DNA of 30,421 nucleotides from Intoshia linei (taxonomy: Eukaryota > Orthonectida > Rhopaluridae), in the NCBI GenBank assembly GCA_001642005.1, contig LWCA01000361.1:1-30421 (forward strand). Reading direction: 5' to 3'. The notes under the pieces were generated by a model, which saw only the letters and a program-made list of their open reading frames with translations, was not told where the DNA came from and ran no database searches. Both the position numbers and the translations under genes were made by a program. This document shows, piece after piece, positions 6,725-19,577 of this stretch (position 1 is the first letter of the stretch; each line of letters begins with the position of its first letter).

Positions 6725-9466
6725 TTTATCCATTGTAATTAAATATTATACCATTTTTATTATTTTCGTTTTTAATAATTTTGTTCGAAATTGAAGTTTT
6801 CATTTTCAAATTGATCTGTCTCTGCGTAACATCTTGGTATGCGACAATAATTATAATTAAAATTATTTTTTGTTTTAACACTATAATATTCTATATTAAA
6901 GTAATTTTATTGTTACTTGTATAACATTGAATGTATTTGTGTGATATATAATTATTCAATAACTAAGGGTCCTAGAATTTTACATTTTTTACAAAAAGGG
7001 TAATCTAGGTTTTGATTGTTAAAATACACTTTTTGAGGTGTCATTTATGATTTTAAAATCTATCCCAGAATTATATTTTATAAAGTTTTAAAACAAATTT
7101 CATTTTTAAAAAAAAAGGTAAATTGTGGTTTTGACTATGAATGTGTGCGTTTCTGAGGCTGAGATTTACGACAATGTTAATTAATTTAAAACACGTCCAG
7201 AATTTATATTTGTAATTTAATTTGTGGGGTTTTTTTTTAAAAAAGAAGAAATTGCGTTTTTGCCCTGAAGGATTCAAATTAGGGATTTGAAACTTGGACA
7301 TGAATATTAACCGCGAAATCTGTATTATAAATTGAAGGGTATAGCGTTATTTATACATACTTATTATTATTATTATTATTAGAATGAGAATATTCTCAAA
7401 CCCAACCATTTTTACTAAAATCCAACTATTGTTACTTAAATCCAATCATTTTAACCAACCCTTAAAAGTAAAATCCCTTTCACAAACTCTTTAGTTTCAT
7501 TTAGTTTTTTCATTAACAATTTCAGAGAACAAATACGTTTTACCAACTTTTTAGGGAAAAATCCAGTTTTACCAACGCTAAAGTGAAAAAATGAGCTTTA
7601 CCAACTCTTAGGTAATATTCTAATTTTACCAACCCTTAAGAGATTAATCCACTTTTAAAAACCCTAAAACGAAAAAGTCCGGTTTTACCAACCCTAAAAG
7701 GTTAAACCTTAACTGTATTTTTCCTTTTAGTGTTAATAAAACTAAAATTTTCCCTAAAGATTTGGTAAACTAATTTTTTCATTTTAGCGTTGGTAAAACT
7801 GGATTTTTCACTAAAGGTTTGATAAAACCAATTTTTACGCAACACAGTTTTTACCGTTTAGCGTGGAACTCTTGGATTTTCCCAAAAAGTGAAAAGTTCA
7901 CACCTTTAGGGTTCATGCAGCTTCAATGGAAAAATACAAAATTTAACCTTAATTTTGTTTCGACATTTTGACTAAAACAACAAAAAATGACATCTAAATA
8001 TGAGTTTAATAGAATACAAAAAAGTTGAATAATTCCTAAAAAAAGTAATTTTTCATAGACATTTTCTGATTGACTGAATTTTTTGTTGTTCATATACATT
8101 TATGTACGTTTATGAAATTTCTTATTATTATTTATTGTATGTGTTTTTAAATGATAGGCAGAACCAAAATATTAAGGCCACTAACATTTTATACTGTTTT
8201 TACAAAATATGTTTACTACTTAATTTTTCAAACACGTTTGGGATATATTTTTAAAAATAATCTTATTTCAATTTCTACATATTATCTTTCGATGATGTAT
8301 TAATAAATTCAGAATCATCAAATTATTCAATGAATAATGAACCCTTACTTATATAGTGATATATGATGTAAAGTAGATAGCTATGTTTGTAACCATTTAT
8401 TTACGAAACAGAAATTTCTAGAAATTATAAAACTAATATTCAAAAGTAGTTTTTTCCGGTGCAGTAAATAGAATATATTTGAAACTCAGAAGTTTGCATT
8501 TTCATAATCAAGAACCCAAATTAACTTTTTATTTAATTTGAAAAAAAGTGTTCATAAATTAAAAAAACAACAGTCTAATTTTGAAATTGGATTTTACAAT
8601 TCTAATTTGAAATTTTCATGTTCTGTTAAAACCTAAAATTACCCATTATTTTGAAAAACTGACAAAGAATTATTGACTAATCTTATCATTAAACAAATTA
8701 TAGCTAATACACTTTGTGCCAGTTACCACCCAAAGATGTTTTAATTTCTTAACCCTTTTTAAAAATAACAGAAACGTTTAAGTAAATTTCCTATTAATTT
8801 TTTAACAAAACATAATGTTCACTCCTTTGTCTTTTTACGACACATTAAAATCAACAATTACTTTTGTATGTACTGTAATGTTTTTACATTGACGTGCATG
8901 GGAAATAATTATTCCAAATTATAATGTATAAGTTACAATCTATATTTACTGTAATATTATAATTAAGTTGTCATTGTTAGCCTTAAGCCTTAAGAACTAG
9001 TCAAAAGTAATCAAATTCAGCAATTTAATATTTATCCTTACTCACTTAAACGAAATTAAAAAAGTATAAGCATCGTGAGTCTCAAATTGATACCCACTAA
9101 CCGAAGGTGTTAAACTAACATTTTGATTAACCATGCATAATTTACTATTAATGGTAATCAATGAAATAGTACCAGAAAGACATTAAAAGGAATAATAATA
9201 CAAATTACCAAAATCGGCACGCTACTAAAATGTTTACGATCCCTACCCCACAACGAAAAACTAAACAAGATAAAACTAGCAGGAAATTAACCGTGTAGCT
9301 TACAATAACAAAACAAAATAATAATCTAGTCTAGCAACTTTAATTGCGAAAAATTTGTAAAATAATATTAAATCTATGCCGTTTTCCGGTATTATTCAAA
9401 ATTAATTGATATTTGCGTGGATACCTGCATTTATAAACAAAAAATATAAATTACAATTGAATAATT
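6725..9466. repeat. Intergenic gap with dispersed repeat and minisatellite
   Basis: There is no supported gene between DYNC2I1 and the coiled-coil gene. A possible ATTAAA poly(A) signal for DYNC2I1 is at 6738-6743. Positions 7000-7320 are a reversed copy of the sequence at about 520-860: the GAGATTTACGACAATGTTAA phrase at 7162 matches TTAACATTATCGTAAATCTC at 621. Positions 7395-7900 are a palindromic minisatellite. Nothing recognisable was seen from 7940 to 9466. Confidence 0.6.
7395..7900. repeat. Palindromic degenerate minisatellite (foldback-like)
   Basis: Units of about 34-38 bp built on TTTTACCAACCCTAAAAG plus GAAAAATCC run in one direction from about 7410 to 7710. From about 7735 to 7870 the complementary form appears (GCGTTGGTAAAACTGGATTT, AAAGGTTTGATAAAACC). 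The locus is therefore an inverted pair of tandem arrays, the layout of foldback elements. The array is degenerate. Confidence 0.6.
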
Positions 9467-12400
9467 ATGAATTTTTGTAAAAATGATTATGGTTTGTCAT
9501 CTTGCCCAGATAGAATAAAGTCACTAAATGAACGACTAAATCTATACGCAGAAAATAAATCACCTAGTGGTAGAAATAATTCTGCAAGTGAAATTGAATC
9601 TTTAAAAAACCTTAATGTCGCCAATCAAATTAAACTAAAAAATCAATATCAAATTCAATTTGATAATTTAGGGTAATAGTAAATTTCAATTAGACATGTA
9701 ACAAGATTAATAATTCCAATATTTAGTAATAAATTACGGGAACTGCAAATTACAGTACGAAGACAAAGCAATGAATTGGAAAAAAAGAATGAAATCATTG
9801 TAAACCTTGAAAACACGTAAATATAATTGCATAATTATAATAATTATTATTATAATAATTATCGTGTTACATTTAAATTTCATAATTAAAATAGATTGGC
9901 TGAAGAACAACGAATAAACGTTAGAAATCGAGAAACAGTGGAAACTATTAAAGCAAAATTGTTGCGAAAAGACTATGATATCCAACAATATCATACTGAA
10001 TTGGAAGACAAAAAATTAGACTTTGATAGATTAATTCGACAGCTCAAACAAATTAGTGATAGAGACAATGCTTCTCAGAATGAGTTTTATACATTGAATT
10101 ATTTATTACATGTATTTTAGATGTAATCGATTAAAAAATCAGGTACAACAATTACAACAGGATTTGAACAATGAAAGAGAAAAATTGAAAAATGAAAAAT
10201 CAAACAATTCTTATGTAATTTATTGAGAACACTTTTCATTAGCTATTTTAATTATTATTCATTAATTTAACCAGATAAGTTTAAGTCAATTCAGATTGTG
10301 TATTATAAATTTGGTATTATCATTAGTCTGTCTGCTAGACGTAGTAGCTAGCTCTCAGGAAAGTTTACTTTTCAGATACTTTTTATGTATATGTTGCTTA
10401 GAATGTGTACAACTGTGAAATGTAAACTGGAAAATCGTAGAATGTACACATTTCATAACCAAGTTGTGGAATGTGTAAAATTTTCACTTATATTTTAATT
10501 ATATATTCATTTTGAGTTTTATCAATTTTTTTTAAAGCCAACTTTAATGGATTTTTTAGTATTTTTTTTCGAACCATACTTTCAAGGGAATTTTTAAGTT
10601 TTTTTTAAGACCAAATTTGTAGAGAAGTTTTTATGAAATTTTTTTGAACAGAACTTTAAGGATGATTTTTTTAAACCAAACTTAAAGATACCTTAAAGTT
10701 TGGGTTAAAAAAATTCTAAGAAACCTCTTTTGAAAGTTTGGTTAAAATAAAATCTTAAAAATCACTTAAAAGTTTGATTCAAAAAAAATCTTCAAAACCA
10801 CCATGAAAGTTTGGTTCAAAAAAAATTTCTAAAAAAACCACCCATAAAGTTATGTTAAAAAAATTCCTAAAAACCCCTTAAAGTTTTGGTTAAAAAAAGT
10901 TTTCTAAGAAACTTCTTTTGAAAGTTTGGTTAAAAAAAATCTTCCAGTCATCCATAAATGTATACATTCTAAGACTTGCCCATAGAATGTGTACATTTCA
11001 CAGTTATACACATTCTATACGACATATATACTAGGTTGACTGTTATGTAGTACGTACAACAGCGCCTAGCTCTGCCGAGAGCAGACATTTATATTCTATC
11101 AACAAATACATTCAATAAGAAAATCTAGCTTCAAAATGTTAGTATTCACTATTATCAATCCTTTAAAGGAGTCGGTTCCAAACTTGTGTCATCACGGACC
11201 GGTCATGTGAGATTATATTTTAATTTAAAGTTAATATTCCCACTTCATTTTAATTTAACGTTTATATAAAAAGTTTTAAAACCATTTTGTGACTCATTTT
11301 TTTAATTTATTAGAGAGAACGAGTGCATAATCTTAAAAATAAAGTAAAAACAGTAATCTTAAAAATTGTCATAAACAGCTTAAATTCAAGAAAAAATTAA
11401 ATTGTAAATAAACCAGTATTTTCTTTTTTAATGTGATGATGTATATTCAGTATCTGCTTTCGATGCAAAAAAAAAATCAATTTTATAATAATAAACGGAA
11501 TCAGCACTTTAAAAACATTTTCAGGATAATTTTAACATTTTAAAATAAATATAAAAATGATAATAACAAAGTTGTACTTTGTAGTACTTTGTTATAGTTT
11601 TAATTTAAAATATTGTAGAGAATTAAAATAAATTTTTGAAAATTAGTGTTTCAGAATGAAAAATTGCGTAGCAACGAAAAAAATCTGAAGGAAACAATTA
11701 TATAAATTTTCACCCATATTTCTTTATTGGAAATATGTAGACGTTTAATGCACATTTTTTTTGAAATTTGTAGAACGAATATTTACTTTTTAATTTTAAT
11801 CCAAAAATTTGAAAAATATTGGTTGATAATGTATTAAAAATTATTTTTTACCGGCAATGCATAGATTGTTGGGGTTGAAATTCTGTATTTATTTCAACTG
11901 GATTAAGCTGTATCAGAATAATTTTTTTTTAAGTTTTTAGTTTTTAATTTTTTGTAGGACTTTAATTATTTCAAATTTTTTGTTTTACAGTTGTTAATAA
12001 AATTAATTAGTTTAGAAAAAAAATAAATACTAAAGTGCTTTTTTTCCCTGAAGGCGTCACTTTGTCAGATTGAAAATTTTTGTGTGTGTGTTAACTGGTA
12101 TAACCGTATCTGTATTTTTTTGAGTTTGCTTATTATGATAAGGCTAAATGTTCGTGCATTGAACAATTTCTAAATAAAAATTTAGAATTTAATGGACGCA
12201 GATGCAAAATTAAAAAATGCTCTGAATGTAATAAAAGATTTGGAAATGAAAACAAATAATAAAAGTAATCCAGATTCAAACAATGATGGCACATTGGAAA
12301 AAATGAGAAGACAGCATTTGGCTCAATTAGAAAATTTAAAAAATAAAACAACTGGCCATTTGGAAAAAACTAGAAGTGAAATGCAGAAATTGTTGGACCT

Positions 12401-14353: not shown

Positions 14354-17300
14354 ATGGTCATACCTACTATTTCAAGTGTATATCCCGATGTTCATGTTGA
14401 CAAACCACGAATGTATTGGGATTATGAAAATTACAATATTGTTTGGAGGTTTTTCTTATTATGATAATGTTCATTTTTTTTAGTGATCCTGAACCATATG
14501 AGCTGGTTAAAAAGATTGGCCGTGGCAAGTATAGTGAAGTTTTTGAAGCCGTCGATGTTCGAACCAATACTACGGTTGTAGTTAAAACTTTAAAGGTGAT
14601 TTTTCATTTTTAACTTTGTAACTTAATTTAAGCCTGTTAAAAAGAAAAAAATTAAACGAGAAATTCTAATACTTAACAATTTGAAAGGAGGGATAAACAT
14701 TATTACTATGCTTGATACTGTTAAAGATTCACTGGTAGGATTTTTTTGTTTTTTTAATTTTTTTTAGTCTAAAACACCATCACTTATTTTTGAATATGTC
14801 GATAACACTGATTTTAAGGTACATTTTTTTTATTTGTGTTTATTTCAGTTCAAGTGTATGATGTGGTAGTTTTTTGATTATTTAGATTGGAAGAATAGTA
14901 GACACATGTTTGTATTGTGTTGGGATTCATATATAATTAGGTGTTTCCTTTTATAATTGAAGATATTTGCAGCATATATTTAAGAAAATTTTCAGCGATT
15001 TATTGATTTTTTAAGTCGTATATAATGCTGATCCGTGTATTCGTTTACTTGTTTCGCATTATCTGATTAAATGATGGATGAGAAATGTAGATAATTGCAT
15101 TTGAGAGAATAATCACCAAATTATAAAAAAAAAAATGAAAACTGCGGAAATTTATATAAAATTAATTTTTTTTGAGATGCTGCCAAAGTTTTAAAGTGTA
15201 GTATTATTATTAAAGCAGTATTATTTTTCAAAGCCGATGATAATTAAACTTTAATGTTATGAAAAAAGTATGACCTTACAAATATATCTTATCTTAGTTA
15301 GTTATTCAAAGCATGATAAAATGAGGCTTATCTTTAAATTGTATTTACATTCAGTTAAATTTGATGTTGGTTTAGTTTGTCTTTTAAAATTTAACATTAT
15401 TTAAAAAAATTGTCGGTTATAAAATAAGGTTTTTTAGCTAAGAATCAAAATCTTTACAGACAAGTTAATTTTTGTAAATTTTTTCACTATCAATAAAGAA
15501 ATTTCCAAAGAAATGCCAATTATGTAAATTTAATTTTTCAACAGAATTATTTCGAAGAATATATATTTCTGTGTTCAACTTTTGGAAAAAGTACTTAGTT
15601 TACTCAGTACTTTGTTTTACTTTTACTCAGTTTTAAAACTCGGTACAATTAAGAATAAGCCTATTTTAGAAAATTATGTCACTTGGGTTTTGAATGTTTC
15701 ATAGTTTATGAATAAATATATTTGTACTTAATTAAAAAATCAATTAGTTTTTTAAATTTTTTATGAGCGAAAACTGAAAAGTCGGAAAATTTTTATCATT
15801 GAAACAAGTCAATTTTTACTGAAATCTGATAAAAATTTTACTCAATTTTACCATACTGAGTTTCTAAATAACTGAAACACATTAATTAATATACAATGCA
15901 TACTATACATATTAGACATTTATTACACAACTATTAGTGTTTACCAACTTTTTTTGTGCTTAGCCCCTATTCAAAGAATGACCGTTAGATCATTTTGGAG
16001 GGGGGGTTGATATAAAAATTCAATTAAAAAAGAATTAATTTTTCAAATCATTGGCATTATCATAAATCACAACCGCAAAAACTTAAAGCCAATTAAAAAA
16101 CTCAACCCTCTGCAGAGCCAGCTGCTGTTTGTACAAAGTATATGTCGAGCTAGTATTGTACAAAATTAACTTTAAATTCATCTATAGTTTTCATAATTCC
16201 AATAAATTTGCGAAATTTACCAGTACCCTCTAGTGGGCCTCGTCTCACGTTTACGAAACAATGATTTACAAAATATATATCATGTAATCCAAAGTAGGCC
16301 ACATGCGGCGCGTAACACAAATTTTACGATAGAAAATTTATCTAATTATATCGATTTCTGTTATAAAAATGATTAGTTTTCATAAAAGTTCAATTATCCG
16401 GTTAATAAAAACGCATTGTTGAAAGATATTAACTTTAGTACAAAGTCTTTAAGTACATTGTTGATACAGAAAAAGACTATAGTATAAGTTTTTAGAATAG
16501 GAGTAGTAAAAAATATTGAAAGTGCGACCCACTAAATTTCTTTCTACCCTAAATCTGTTTCCGGGTCTTTTCTGAAATGTTCATATACTTAAAACGACAG
16601 TTTGTTTACATTATATGTTGGTTAAATTTTTACTTTCTGTTATATCAGGTGGTATAACCATTTCATAAAAGGTCAAATTTGCGTATTAAATGTTTATTTT
16701 GATGAATTATTTCATAATATTCGTAGAAAGTATACAATGCATTATAAATGTTTTTCAGAATATTCCCAATCTGTGGGTATATATGTTGCATAGAATGTAT
16801 ACAACTGTGAAATGTACACTAGGGTGCCACACACATTTGAATTTTAATTGCGCGTAGTGAAAATTCGTTGCTCTTAAGCAATATATTCACTATGTCGTTT
16901 TAAAATTAACTAAAATGACCTGCTTGATCCGCAGTCTTTAAGCAAAGTTTTACAAAATTTGGAACGAATAAACATCAGTTCAAACTATTTTACATGGTTA
17001 CCACCGGTTTTACACGTCCGAAGCATGACGAAAAGATGCGAAAATAGTATTGTCGGTGATTTTATGTGTTTTAAACTGAACAACAATAAGTCACCAACAA
17101 ATCTCCTGGGGGATTATAATGTATTTCTATTGAAGCAAGGAAGCGGGAATAATATCGTCGGTCATTTTAACGATTTTACCTTTAACTCTAATAAGTTACA
17201 TACAAATCGTCAGATTATTAAATGCGTACTTTCATTGAAACACGAAAAATCTACTCTTCAATTTCGAAGAGCTATAAAAGAAGTATTCGAAATATACAAA

Positions 17301-19577
17301 AAGACTGATCTGAATATAATAATACAGATTGACTCGAAGATCAAGGAATTGTTCAAGAAAGTTGTTAGCGTCACACCACACACAGAGAAAGGGCGTTTAT
17401 TCATAGATAAACTTGATGACCTGTTCGAATGTGCAAAGATTCATCAGTCCAGAGCGCTCGATGCTTAATTAACTAAATAACAACCATCATTCACGTATAG
17501 TTAGACCAATTAAATAAATATATAGTTTAATGATGAAAACACATACCTCAGTGTAAGCGCTTGCATAGAAAAAATGAATTTATTATTAAAAATTAAATTA
17601 AGTGTTGATTCAATCATTTGAATCTGTTGAAAGCTGAATTGATTTTTTGTATTTCATTAAGGCTCTTTCAGCGGGATCGTTAACCGAAGGAGCGTTCTTC
17701 ACAGGGTGAACATTTTTATTGAGATAGTCGTCGTGCATTGAAAATTTTCTTCGAGCAGTACTACAGAGTACTACAGATTCTTCGAAATATATCAGATCTA
17801 CTAGATAGATTTCTCCAGGAATCGAGCATGCAGAGGTCGTTGGACTTCGCATTTTGTGTGTCAGCAGCCTTTAACCAAAATGGCAAGTAGCCATAGAAAA
17901 TCCAAATTAAGAATTATTTCATCAGACTTGAGCGATTGATTCTAAGTATATATGATTTCGTAGAGTACAAAATACTTGACATCCATCGAGCTTTCGATAC
18001 CGCTCCGGGTTTTCTAAGGGTTATTCGATTACCAAATATCAGTTAAGAGGTCACAACATTTTTTATAATCGTCGCGCAGGTTTTTGGCTCTTGATAAAAT
18101 TGTTGATCTGGCATGTCAAGAATCAATTACATCAGCCTCGATTTGTGGGACTTCGTGTGGACCATAAAACGTACTATTTTCCTTGTAGGCTTCAGAAACT
18201 TTCTTGATGAAAGCATAACCTGTTAATACAGACCTCAATATCAACTCTAGTATGTGATGGCTGATGTTTATTTGTTCAGAATTTTGTAAAACTTTGATTA
18301 AAGCCTGCGGATCAAGCAGGTCATTTTAGTTAATTTTAAAAACGACATAGTGAATATATTGCTTAAGAGCAACGAATTTTCACTACGCGCAATTAAAATT
18401 CAGATGTGTGTGGCACCCTAATGTACACATTCTATGGGTTAGTGGTACAATCCTAGGTATATAGGAAATATATAATGGAAATATTTTAATTTTTCAATAA
18501 TGTTTTATTTACGTCCCAAAGTAGAACGCCATCAGGTGCGAATAGCATCAACTGTAAAAATAATTGAAATATTCATAAAACTTTCAGTGCGGTTTTTTTG
18601 TGAAAAATAGTTAATGGTATGCTATTCAACCGGGTTATTGGGACCTAATGTATAACAATATTTTAATTTTAGAGACTTTACAGTAGACTCAGCGACTTTG
18701 ATATTCGATATTATTTGAATGAATTATTGAAGGCTTTAGATTATTGCCACAGCATGGGTATAATGCATCGAGATGTTAAACCCCACAATGTGATGATAGA
18801 TCATGAAAAACGCAAGGTATATTTTCAAATATACTGAAATATTCTTTAATTGAATTATTAATTTATTAAATTTAGTTGAAACTGATAGACTGGGGACTCG
18901 CTGAATTTTATCATCCTAAACAAGCATATAATGTCAGAGTAGCTTCTAGATATTTTAAAGGACCCGAACTTTTGTTAGATTATCAAGTATTTCGTTTTGA
19001 TGCATAATTTAAATTATAATTCAGAATTACGACTATTCTCTCGACTTGTGGAGCTTTGGATGCATGTTGGCATCTTTAATTTTTAAAAAGGAACCTTTTT
19101 TCCATGGTCATGATAATCAAGACCAAGTAAAATATATTTAGAATGTAATTGTTAATTTCGATTTTAGATGGTGAAAATTGCCAAAGTTCTTGGAACAGAT
19201 GAGCTATTTCAATATACCCGAAAATACAATATTATAATTGAACCACGATTTCTGGAGTTGATCGGAAGGTATATTCATTAATTTGCATAATTAATTATGT
19301 TTTTAGACACACTAGAAAGCGGTGGTCTCGATATCAAAACGAAAAGAACACGCCATATATCTCTGCAGATGCTATTAGTCTATTGGACAATTTATTGAGA
19401 TACGACCACAAAGAGAGATTAACAGCAAAAGAAGCTCAATCACATCCATACTTTAGTAATTTTTTAGTTTATTAAATTTTATTTCAATACTTAGAATCTT
19501 TAACTGAAGTGACTAATGGATCTTATCCCAACAACCAAAATCTCAACTCAAATAATTCAGATTCCAGTCACAAATGA
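14354..19577 (+). CDS. CSNK2A1: Casein kinase II catalytic subunit alpha
   Basis: Constitutively active Ser/Thr kinase that phosphorylates acidic sites, working in the nucleus and cytoplasm with CK2 beta. Ten in-phase exons encode 349 residues: 14354-14448, 14484-14595, 14633-14734, 14768-14818, 18673-18816, 18876-18986, 19025-19126, 19168-19268, 19307-19455 and 19495-19577. Visible landmarks are RMYWDYE near the N-terminus, the glycine loop [11 protein letters not shown] (44-54), ATP lysine 66 in VVVKTL, the basic cluster KKKKIKR (72-78), catalytic HRDVKPHN (152-159), the CK2-specific DWG in place of DFG (173-175), GPELL (197-201) and [13 protein letters not shown]. All key residues are intact and the length is typical. 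The C-terminus is a short Asn/Ser-rich tail. Eight of nine introns are 33-59 bp; the fourth is 3,854 bp and contains the mobile element at 16820-18420. AATAAA follows the stop by 20 bp. Confidence 0.97.
16812..16819. repeat. Left 8-bp target-site duplication (ATGTACAC)
   Basis: ATGTACAC directly abuts the TAGGGTGCC end of the element and is repeated exactly at 18421-18428. Removing the element and one copy restores GTGAAATGTACACATTCTAT, which is the sequence present uninterrupted, in reverse complement, at about 10984-11005. Confidence 0.93.
16914..17468 (+). CDS. Left-arm gene of the 1.6-kb element, unknown function
   Basis: The frame is open from just after a stop at 16911-16913 to TAA at 17466-17468, about 184 codons. 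The first part (DLLDPQ at 16917-16934, then KVLQN and INIS) lies in the inverted repeat and recurs in the right-arm gene. The first in-frame ATG is at 17025, so the true start is unclear: a non-ATG start, an unseen leader exon, or the 17025 ATG are all possible. Three short tandem repeats follow the pattern N-x-(I/L)-(V/L)-G-(D/H)-(F/Y): [19 protein letters not shown] and NIVGHFNDF, each about 17-19 residues, suggesting stacked beta strands. The C-terminal half is helical and charged ([20 protein letters not shown]). I recognise no family. AATAAA at 17513-17518 lies downstream. Confidence 0.6.
   Translation, partial: NDLLDPQSLSKVLQNLERINISSNYFTWLPPVLHVRSMTKRCENSIVGDFMCFKLNNNKSPTNLLGDYNVFLLKQGSGNNIVGHFNDFTFNSNKLHTNRQIIKCVLSLKHEKSTLQFRRAIKEVFEIYKKTDLNIIIQIDSKIKELFKKVVSVTPHTEKGRLFIDKLDDLFECAKIHQSRALDA
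17610..18325 (-). CDS. Right-arm gene of the 1.6-kb element, possibly decayed
   Basis: Reading leftward, the frame begins with the repeat-encoded [14 protein letters not shown], mirroring the left-arm gene. It continues through [19 protein letters not shown] to a single in-frame TGA at 18118-18116, then stays open ([18 protein letters not shown]) to a good donor after 18033 (GTAATC). Joining to an acceptor before 17868 keeps the frame and leads into the 80-codon segment starting at ATG 17852, with [17 protein letters not shown] and [14 protein letters not shown], ending at 17610. The lone TGA suggests either recent decay, a base error, or two shorter proteins. The start codon is unclear, as on the left. 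AATAAA follows at 17584-17579. No known family is recognised. Confidence 0.5.
18421..18428. repeat. Right 8-bp target-site duplication (ATGTACAC)
   Basis: This is an exact copy of 16812-16819, directly after the terminal CACCCTA of the right inverted repeat. It is followed by ATTCTATGGGTTAG, the continuation of the interrupted host repeat. Confidence 0.93.

Follow-up and report, generated by a model that had tools for sequence, protein, structure and literature searches.

A hAT-type element with two convergent frames in Intoshia linei: very probable origin by rearrangement of its own transposase gene

Contig LWCA01000361.1 of the Intoshia linei assembly GCA_001642005.1, whose 30,421 bp we refer to as the window, carries a 1.6-kb segment that is bounded by long inverted repeats and a short target-site duplication and within which two open reading frames (ORFs) face one another. 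An initial annotation took this segment for a hAT-like mobile or virus-like element with no recognisable transposase and a two-gene cargo of its own. The locus raises the question of what the two frames are. We find that both are pieces of the hAT-fold transposase of the element's own family, and conclude that the element is very probably a non-autonomous hAT derivative, produced by internal inversion and deletion and served by a transposase from elsewhere. Its ends are intact, the remnants between them belong to its own transposase family and catalytic residues are missing. The element is unusual in layout and ordinary in kind.

Two pieces of one transposase

The left ORF is open throughout, spanning 147 amino acids (aa) from its ATG (17025–17468) or more from the TTG listed in Table 1, and a profile search matches it to the transposase N-terminal domain with an E-value of 5e-11. 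Used as a query against the genome (34.65 Mb in 1319 contigs), it gave 42 protein-level match rows, itself and pieces of sister copies included, and several of these matches lie upstream of, and collinear with, a conserved segment bearing the motifs FDTT...NTG and CRHHI. The ORF contains an internal partial duplication, 17035–17103 (ENSIVGDF...NKSPTN) and 17131–17208 (NNIVGHF...NKLHTN), with about 73% likeness in DNA as judged from cross-matches between copies.

The right remnant abuts the right repeat, starts within the CRHHI motif and runs in the correct order to ...VNDPAERAL.... The 80-aa ORF that had been read as the second gene is a frame chimera, in which some 29 residues out of the transposase frame precede about 51 that belong to the transposase C-terminus (...VNDPAERAL...). 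Of the two inward-reading genes proposed, the left is thus upheld as an open frame and the right is not one gene. The AATAAA signals noted between their stops number one per strand, against about 0.4 per strand expected in this AT-rich window, and are at chance level. With both frames identified as N- and C-terminal transposase remnants, the ideas of a missing transposase and of a cargo fall away. A viral affinity fares no better, since none of the 20 stretches of the viral collection that matched the search pattern coded for anything related to the left ORF.

Direct BLASTP comparison of the window ORFs with one aphid relative is weak (E-values of 0.006 and 0.14), and profiles are therefore needed. 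A 405-aa query gave seven protein matches at E ≤ 0.01, of which the two named ones are from aphids and are weak (1.2e-3 and 8.5e-3). A profile made from these seven matches found at least 1277 proteins at E ≤ 1e-5 among the best 7992 candidates scored, ranked by shared words; family members are about 750 aa long and the named ones are animal. In the predicted structure of one full-length relative (mean predicted local distance difference test score, pLDDT, 89.4), the top structural match is Hermes, with model residues 251–724 lying on Hermes 135–609 (PDB 6dwz, 4d1q and 2bw3) at about 10% sequence identity, and the model has the RNase H core and helical insertion of the hAT fold. The P element structure 6p5a ranks twelfth (E-value 5e-3), under eleven Hermes rows. 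Alignment of 91 relatives shows D358, C387–H390 and E689 to be invariant and D293 nearly so; these residues are candidates for the catalytic D, D and E, with CxxH, of Hermes.

Pfam and NCBIfam scans did not recognise the family proteins scanned, single-sequence Pfam searches with five pieces of relatives were uninformative, and a profile of ten catalytic pieces returned one weak, unrelated row from the PDB. One of the 120 relatives listed has a precomputed label, PF27041.1, which a direct scan of the same protein did not report, and a very recent Pfam family covering these transposases may exist. In the literature, titles and abstract openings held nothing that we recognised as concerning this family, which is weak evidence of absence. 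The genome also contains 97 matches to the Pfam hAT dimerisation domain PF05699, Pfam-recognisable hAT sequences being abundant there too. The initial annotation had allowed that its cargo frames might turn out to be scraps of a known hAT transposase; the outcome comes close to this, the family being hAT by fold and not by Pfam name.

Ends, insertion site and copies

The two terminal repeats align with six mismatches and one gap over 159/160 bp (about 96% identity), and the element ends are TAGGGTGCC, in keeping with the YAGGG with which hAT terminal repeats begin. The flanking duplication ATGTACAC agrees at all eight bases on the two sides and has the length typical of hAT insertions; Ac/Ds makes an 8-bp duplication. 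The left flank (16778–16819) is part of a dispersed repeat with at least 40 genome matches, the window's own among them, 40 of 80 candidates having been scored. In all ten paralogous unoccupied sites (seven loci), which were located via a 12-base motif containing most of the 8-mer, the 8-mer is single and the dispersed repeat continues after it; it reads ATGTACAC in nine sites and ATGTACAG in one. Because the 8-mer is undoubled there, insertion with an 8-bp duplication is well supported. The dispersed repeat contains inner direct repeats (GTCGTAGAATGTACACAT...).

The G+C fraction of the element is 0.346, whereas its two flanks, taken as about 3 kb each, have 0.259 and 0.289, and none of 512 sliding 1601-bp windows from the remainder of the window reaches this value. 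On the inverted repeats, the perfect duplication and the distinct base composition, the initial annotation was therefore correct, and its placing of the element with hAT is borne out by the TAGGG-type ends, the 8-bp duplication and the hAT-fold transposase of the family.

Table 1. Features of the element and its insertion site (positions in the window)
Feature	Position	Strand	Remarks
Mobile element	16820–18420		1.6 kb; inverted repeats and target-site duplication
Left target-site duplication	16812–16819		ATGTACAC
Right target-site duplication	18421–18428		ATGTACAC
Left terminal inverted repeat	16820–16978	+	159 bp; starts TAGGGTGCCACACACAT
Right terminal inverted repeat	18261–18420	-	160 bp
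Left ORF, hAT-fold transposase N-terminal domain	16959–17468	+	169 aa from TTG; ends ...QSRALDA-stop
Stretch between convergent stops	17469–17609		one AATAAA per strand
80-aa ORF, frame chimera	17610–17852	-	spans the 10-bp tandem duplication
Decayed C-terminal half of transposase	17613–18260	-	stops and frame breaks
10-bp tandem duplication, shifts right-remnant frame	17757–17776	-	window copy; not in C385, C1178, C539
In-frame TAA in right remnant	17914–17916	-	also in C385; not in C539, C1178

With the 160-bp repeat as query, 11 matches were found, which include both ends of the window element and are spread over 10 contigs; a matching end is present on nine contigs besides the window's. 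Both coding parts occur in four copies, those of the window and of contigs C385, C539 and C1178. The contig edge is reached inside the element on C1178, C539, C385, C305 and C1151, a single end is present on each of C112, C785, C1303 and C874, and the window copy alone among the copies found has two visible ends. The lack of any second copy, which would have refuted the initial annotation, is therefore not what the genome shows, but no second complete copy of the exact form was seen. The C385 copy, like the window element, lies in this type of dispersed repeat.

Of the four copies, only that of the window has a left ORF without interruption. Its counterpart in C385 has a stop and has lost its 5' part, that in C1178 has frame breaks and that in C539 has suffered a large internal loss. 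Over six pairs of copies, the ratio of nonsynonymous to synonymous differences (pN/pS) for this N-terminal part runs from 0.31, which rests on 37 codons, to 1.07, and the pairs with the most codons are near neutral (window–C1178, 0.84 over 127 codons; window–C385, 0.92 over 113). These observations bear on two roles that the left ORF might have had. A pair of true cargo genes, convergent and with no part in transposition, would accord with a frame open for 147–169 aa, and with single-sequence searches in which neither ORF matched Pfam and the left ORF had no convincing match in the PDB, but the frames are both transposase pieces, the left one is broken in the three other copies and its best-covered comparisons are near neutral; we consider such a cargo extremely improbable. 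By analogy with the P element, whose KP product binds ends without cutting, the N-terminal fragment might have been retained to repress the family. The open window ORF does preserve most of the N-terminal domain, yet the breakage of its counterparts in the three other copies and the mostly near-neutral ratios make this very unlikely.

Origin of the convergent layout

Among the loci examined, 21 contigs hold N-terminal together with later transposase pieces; tallied by contig, 15 have them on one strand, two (C355 and C146) have pieces on both strands and four are convergent, these last being the family copies named above. An element on C1068 (1967 bp, repeats of about 120 bp) resembles that of the window in its TAGGGTG ends, long repeats, near-perfect 8-bp duplication (one of eight bases differs) and protein family, and differs from it in that all gene parts lie on one strand and the catalytic middle is present, with stops. 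Duplications of related elements on C676 and C656 are mismatched at one and two of eight bases, respectively; a repeat pair on C23, at which seven of eight differ, was taken as chance and dropped. Since one-strand order is found on 15 of 21 contigs and in the C1068 element, it is most likely ancestral, the convergent layout most likely representing an internal inversion that was later copied.

The C385 copy retains the catalytic middle, which shares a strand with the C-terminal half. By comparison with it, the window copy is missing everything from where the right repeat ends on its inner side up to and including the CR of CRHHI; it is without the catalytic D, D and CR and keeps the N- and C-terminal pieces alone. 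As C385 still has the middle beside the C-terminal half, we conclude that the window copy has lost it.

The occurrence of the layout in four copies on different contigs implies that it spread or was copied, and this could also be understood if the convergent arrangement were a working two-gene form, with N-terminal and catalytic proteins made from opposite strands and acting together. The retention of the catalytic middle in C385 speaks for this, as do ratios of pN/pS for the main part of 0.34 (C385–window), 0.44 (C385–C539) and 0.54 (window–C539). With C1178 as one partner, however, the values are 0.70, 0.79 and 1.29, so that signs of selection on this part are not consistent; the main part in C385 has one frame break and one stop; and the right side of C385 is lost at the contig edge, where a second N-terminal part may have lain. 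We give a working two-gene form a very slight chance. The range over all six pairs, 0.34–1.29, leaves an equally small chance that the split hAT transposase belonged to one autonomous element, its N-terminal-domain gene and its catalytic gene reading towards each other from the two ends; C385 would then have survived with light decay, and the window copy would be a deletion derivative of this form.

The origin that we favour, by inversion and deletion within a single gene, would have begun with an ancestor much like the decayed C1068 element, in which one transposase gene, lying in a single orientation between long repeats with TAGGGTG ends, encoded an N-terminal domain and an RNase H core with D, D, CRHH and E and a helical insertion. 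In one lineage the catalytic and C-terminal part would have been turned round while the N-terminal part kept its orientation, so that two half-genes came to face each other; the resulting layout is seen in four copies, and the inversion event itself is presumed from it. The window copy would then have lost the stretch that separated CRHHI from the right repeat, together with the CR. Its movement would have been of the cut-and-paste type, a transposase produced elsewhere having acted on its ends, and its landing would have generated the 8-bp duplication that is observed.

Mobilisation, genomic setting and known systems

To judge from its sequence, the window copy cannot make an active transposase, since D, D and a complete core are missing, and it was most likely moved by a transposase from elsewhere in the genome. 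The window and C385 copies share a stop that has no counterpart in C539 and C1178, yet their outer flanks differ, which indirectly favours movement, although both copies lie in one kind of dispersed repeat. A genome scan found 43 ends matching TGTACACTAGGGTGYCACACA within two mismatches and none matching the reversed pattern, a zero that tests the pattern as a whole. The 34 of these that have no recognised transposase match within 3 kb are perhaps a large non-autonomous population. TGTACA is found at 32 of the 43 pattern matches, a figure that is no gauge of target preference as the pattern itself contained TGTACAC; it precedes the end on four of the 10 end-bearing contigs (the window's and the nine others).

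Several points weigh against a non-autonomous hAT derivative mobilised in this way. Among the copies found, none besides the window's shows both ends, so that transposition of precisely this deleted form is presumed rather than seen, and the shared stop could stem from one parent without movement after breakage. No intact source transposase gene was seen among the genome matches, and a recognised transposase match was found at a distance of 3 kb or less for nine of the 43 related ends, five of the nine being the window family's own (distances were taken from match start coordinates, second rows of a copy being omitted). Moreover, PF05699 was absent from the scan results of 15 family proteins, and the family profile found no convincing match by sequence among PDB chains; the hAT assignment therefore rests on fold, ends and duplication.

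The exon at 18673–18816, downstream of the element, was confirmed by search to encode a CK2 alpha-like kinase, and kinase coding pieces were recognised by eye in translations near 14485–14820, upstream. With pieces of the kinase on both sides, the element is intronic. Elsewhere in the window, minisatellite-like tandem arrays with units of 20–73 bp lie at 7398–7836 and 10525–10943.

Among known systems, a close comparison is with the Ds-del class of maize, which are internal-deletion derivatives of hAT elements (PMC3260210). Both keep their ends, have an internally deleted transposase gene and need an outside transposase; in the window element the C-terminal half is also inverted, and its repeats are about 160 bp long compared with 11 bp in Ds. 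The likeness to Hermes is one of predicted fold, seen in the one full-length relative modelled, whose first 250 residues are unmatched and whose sequence identity is as low as noted above, and the window copy is without the catalytic middle.

What had appeared to be a transposase-less element with a cargo is thus explained as one that holds relics of its own transposase, and provides a clear case of internal rearrangement turning one transposase into two convergent 'genes'. It points to a large family of hAT-fold transposases whose named members are animal. As the family proteins scanned escape Pfam, NCBIfam and PDB sequence searches, such elements can pass as unknown cargo in annotation.
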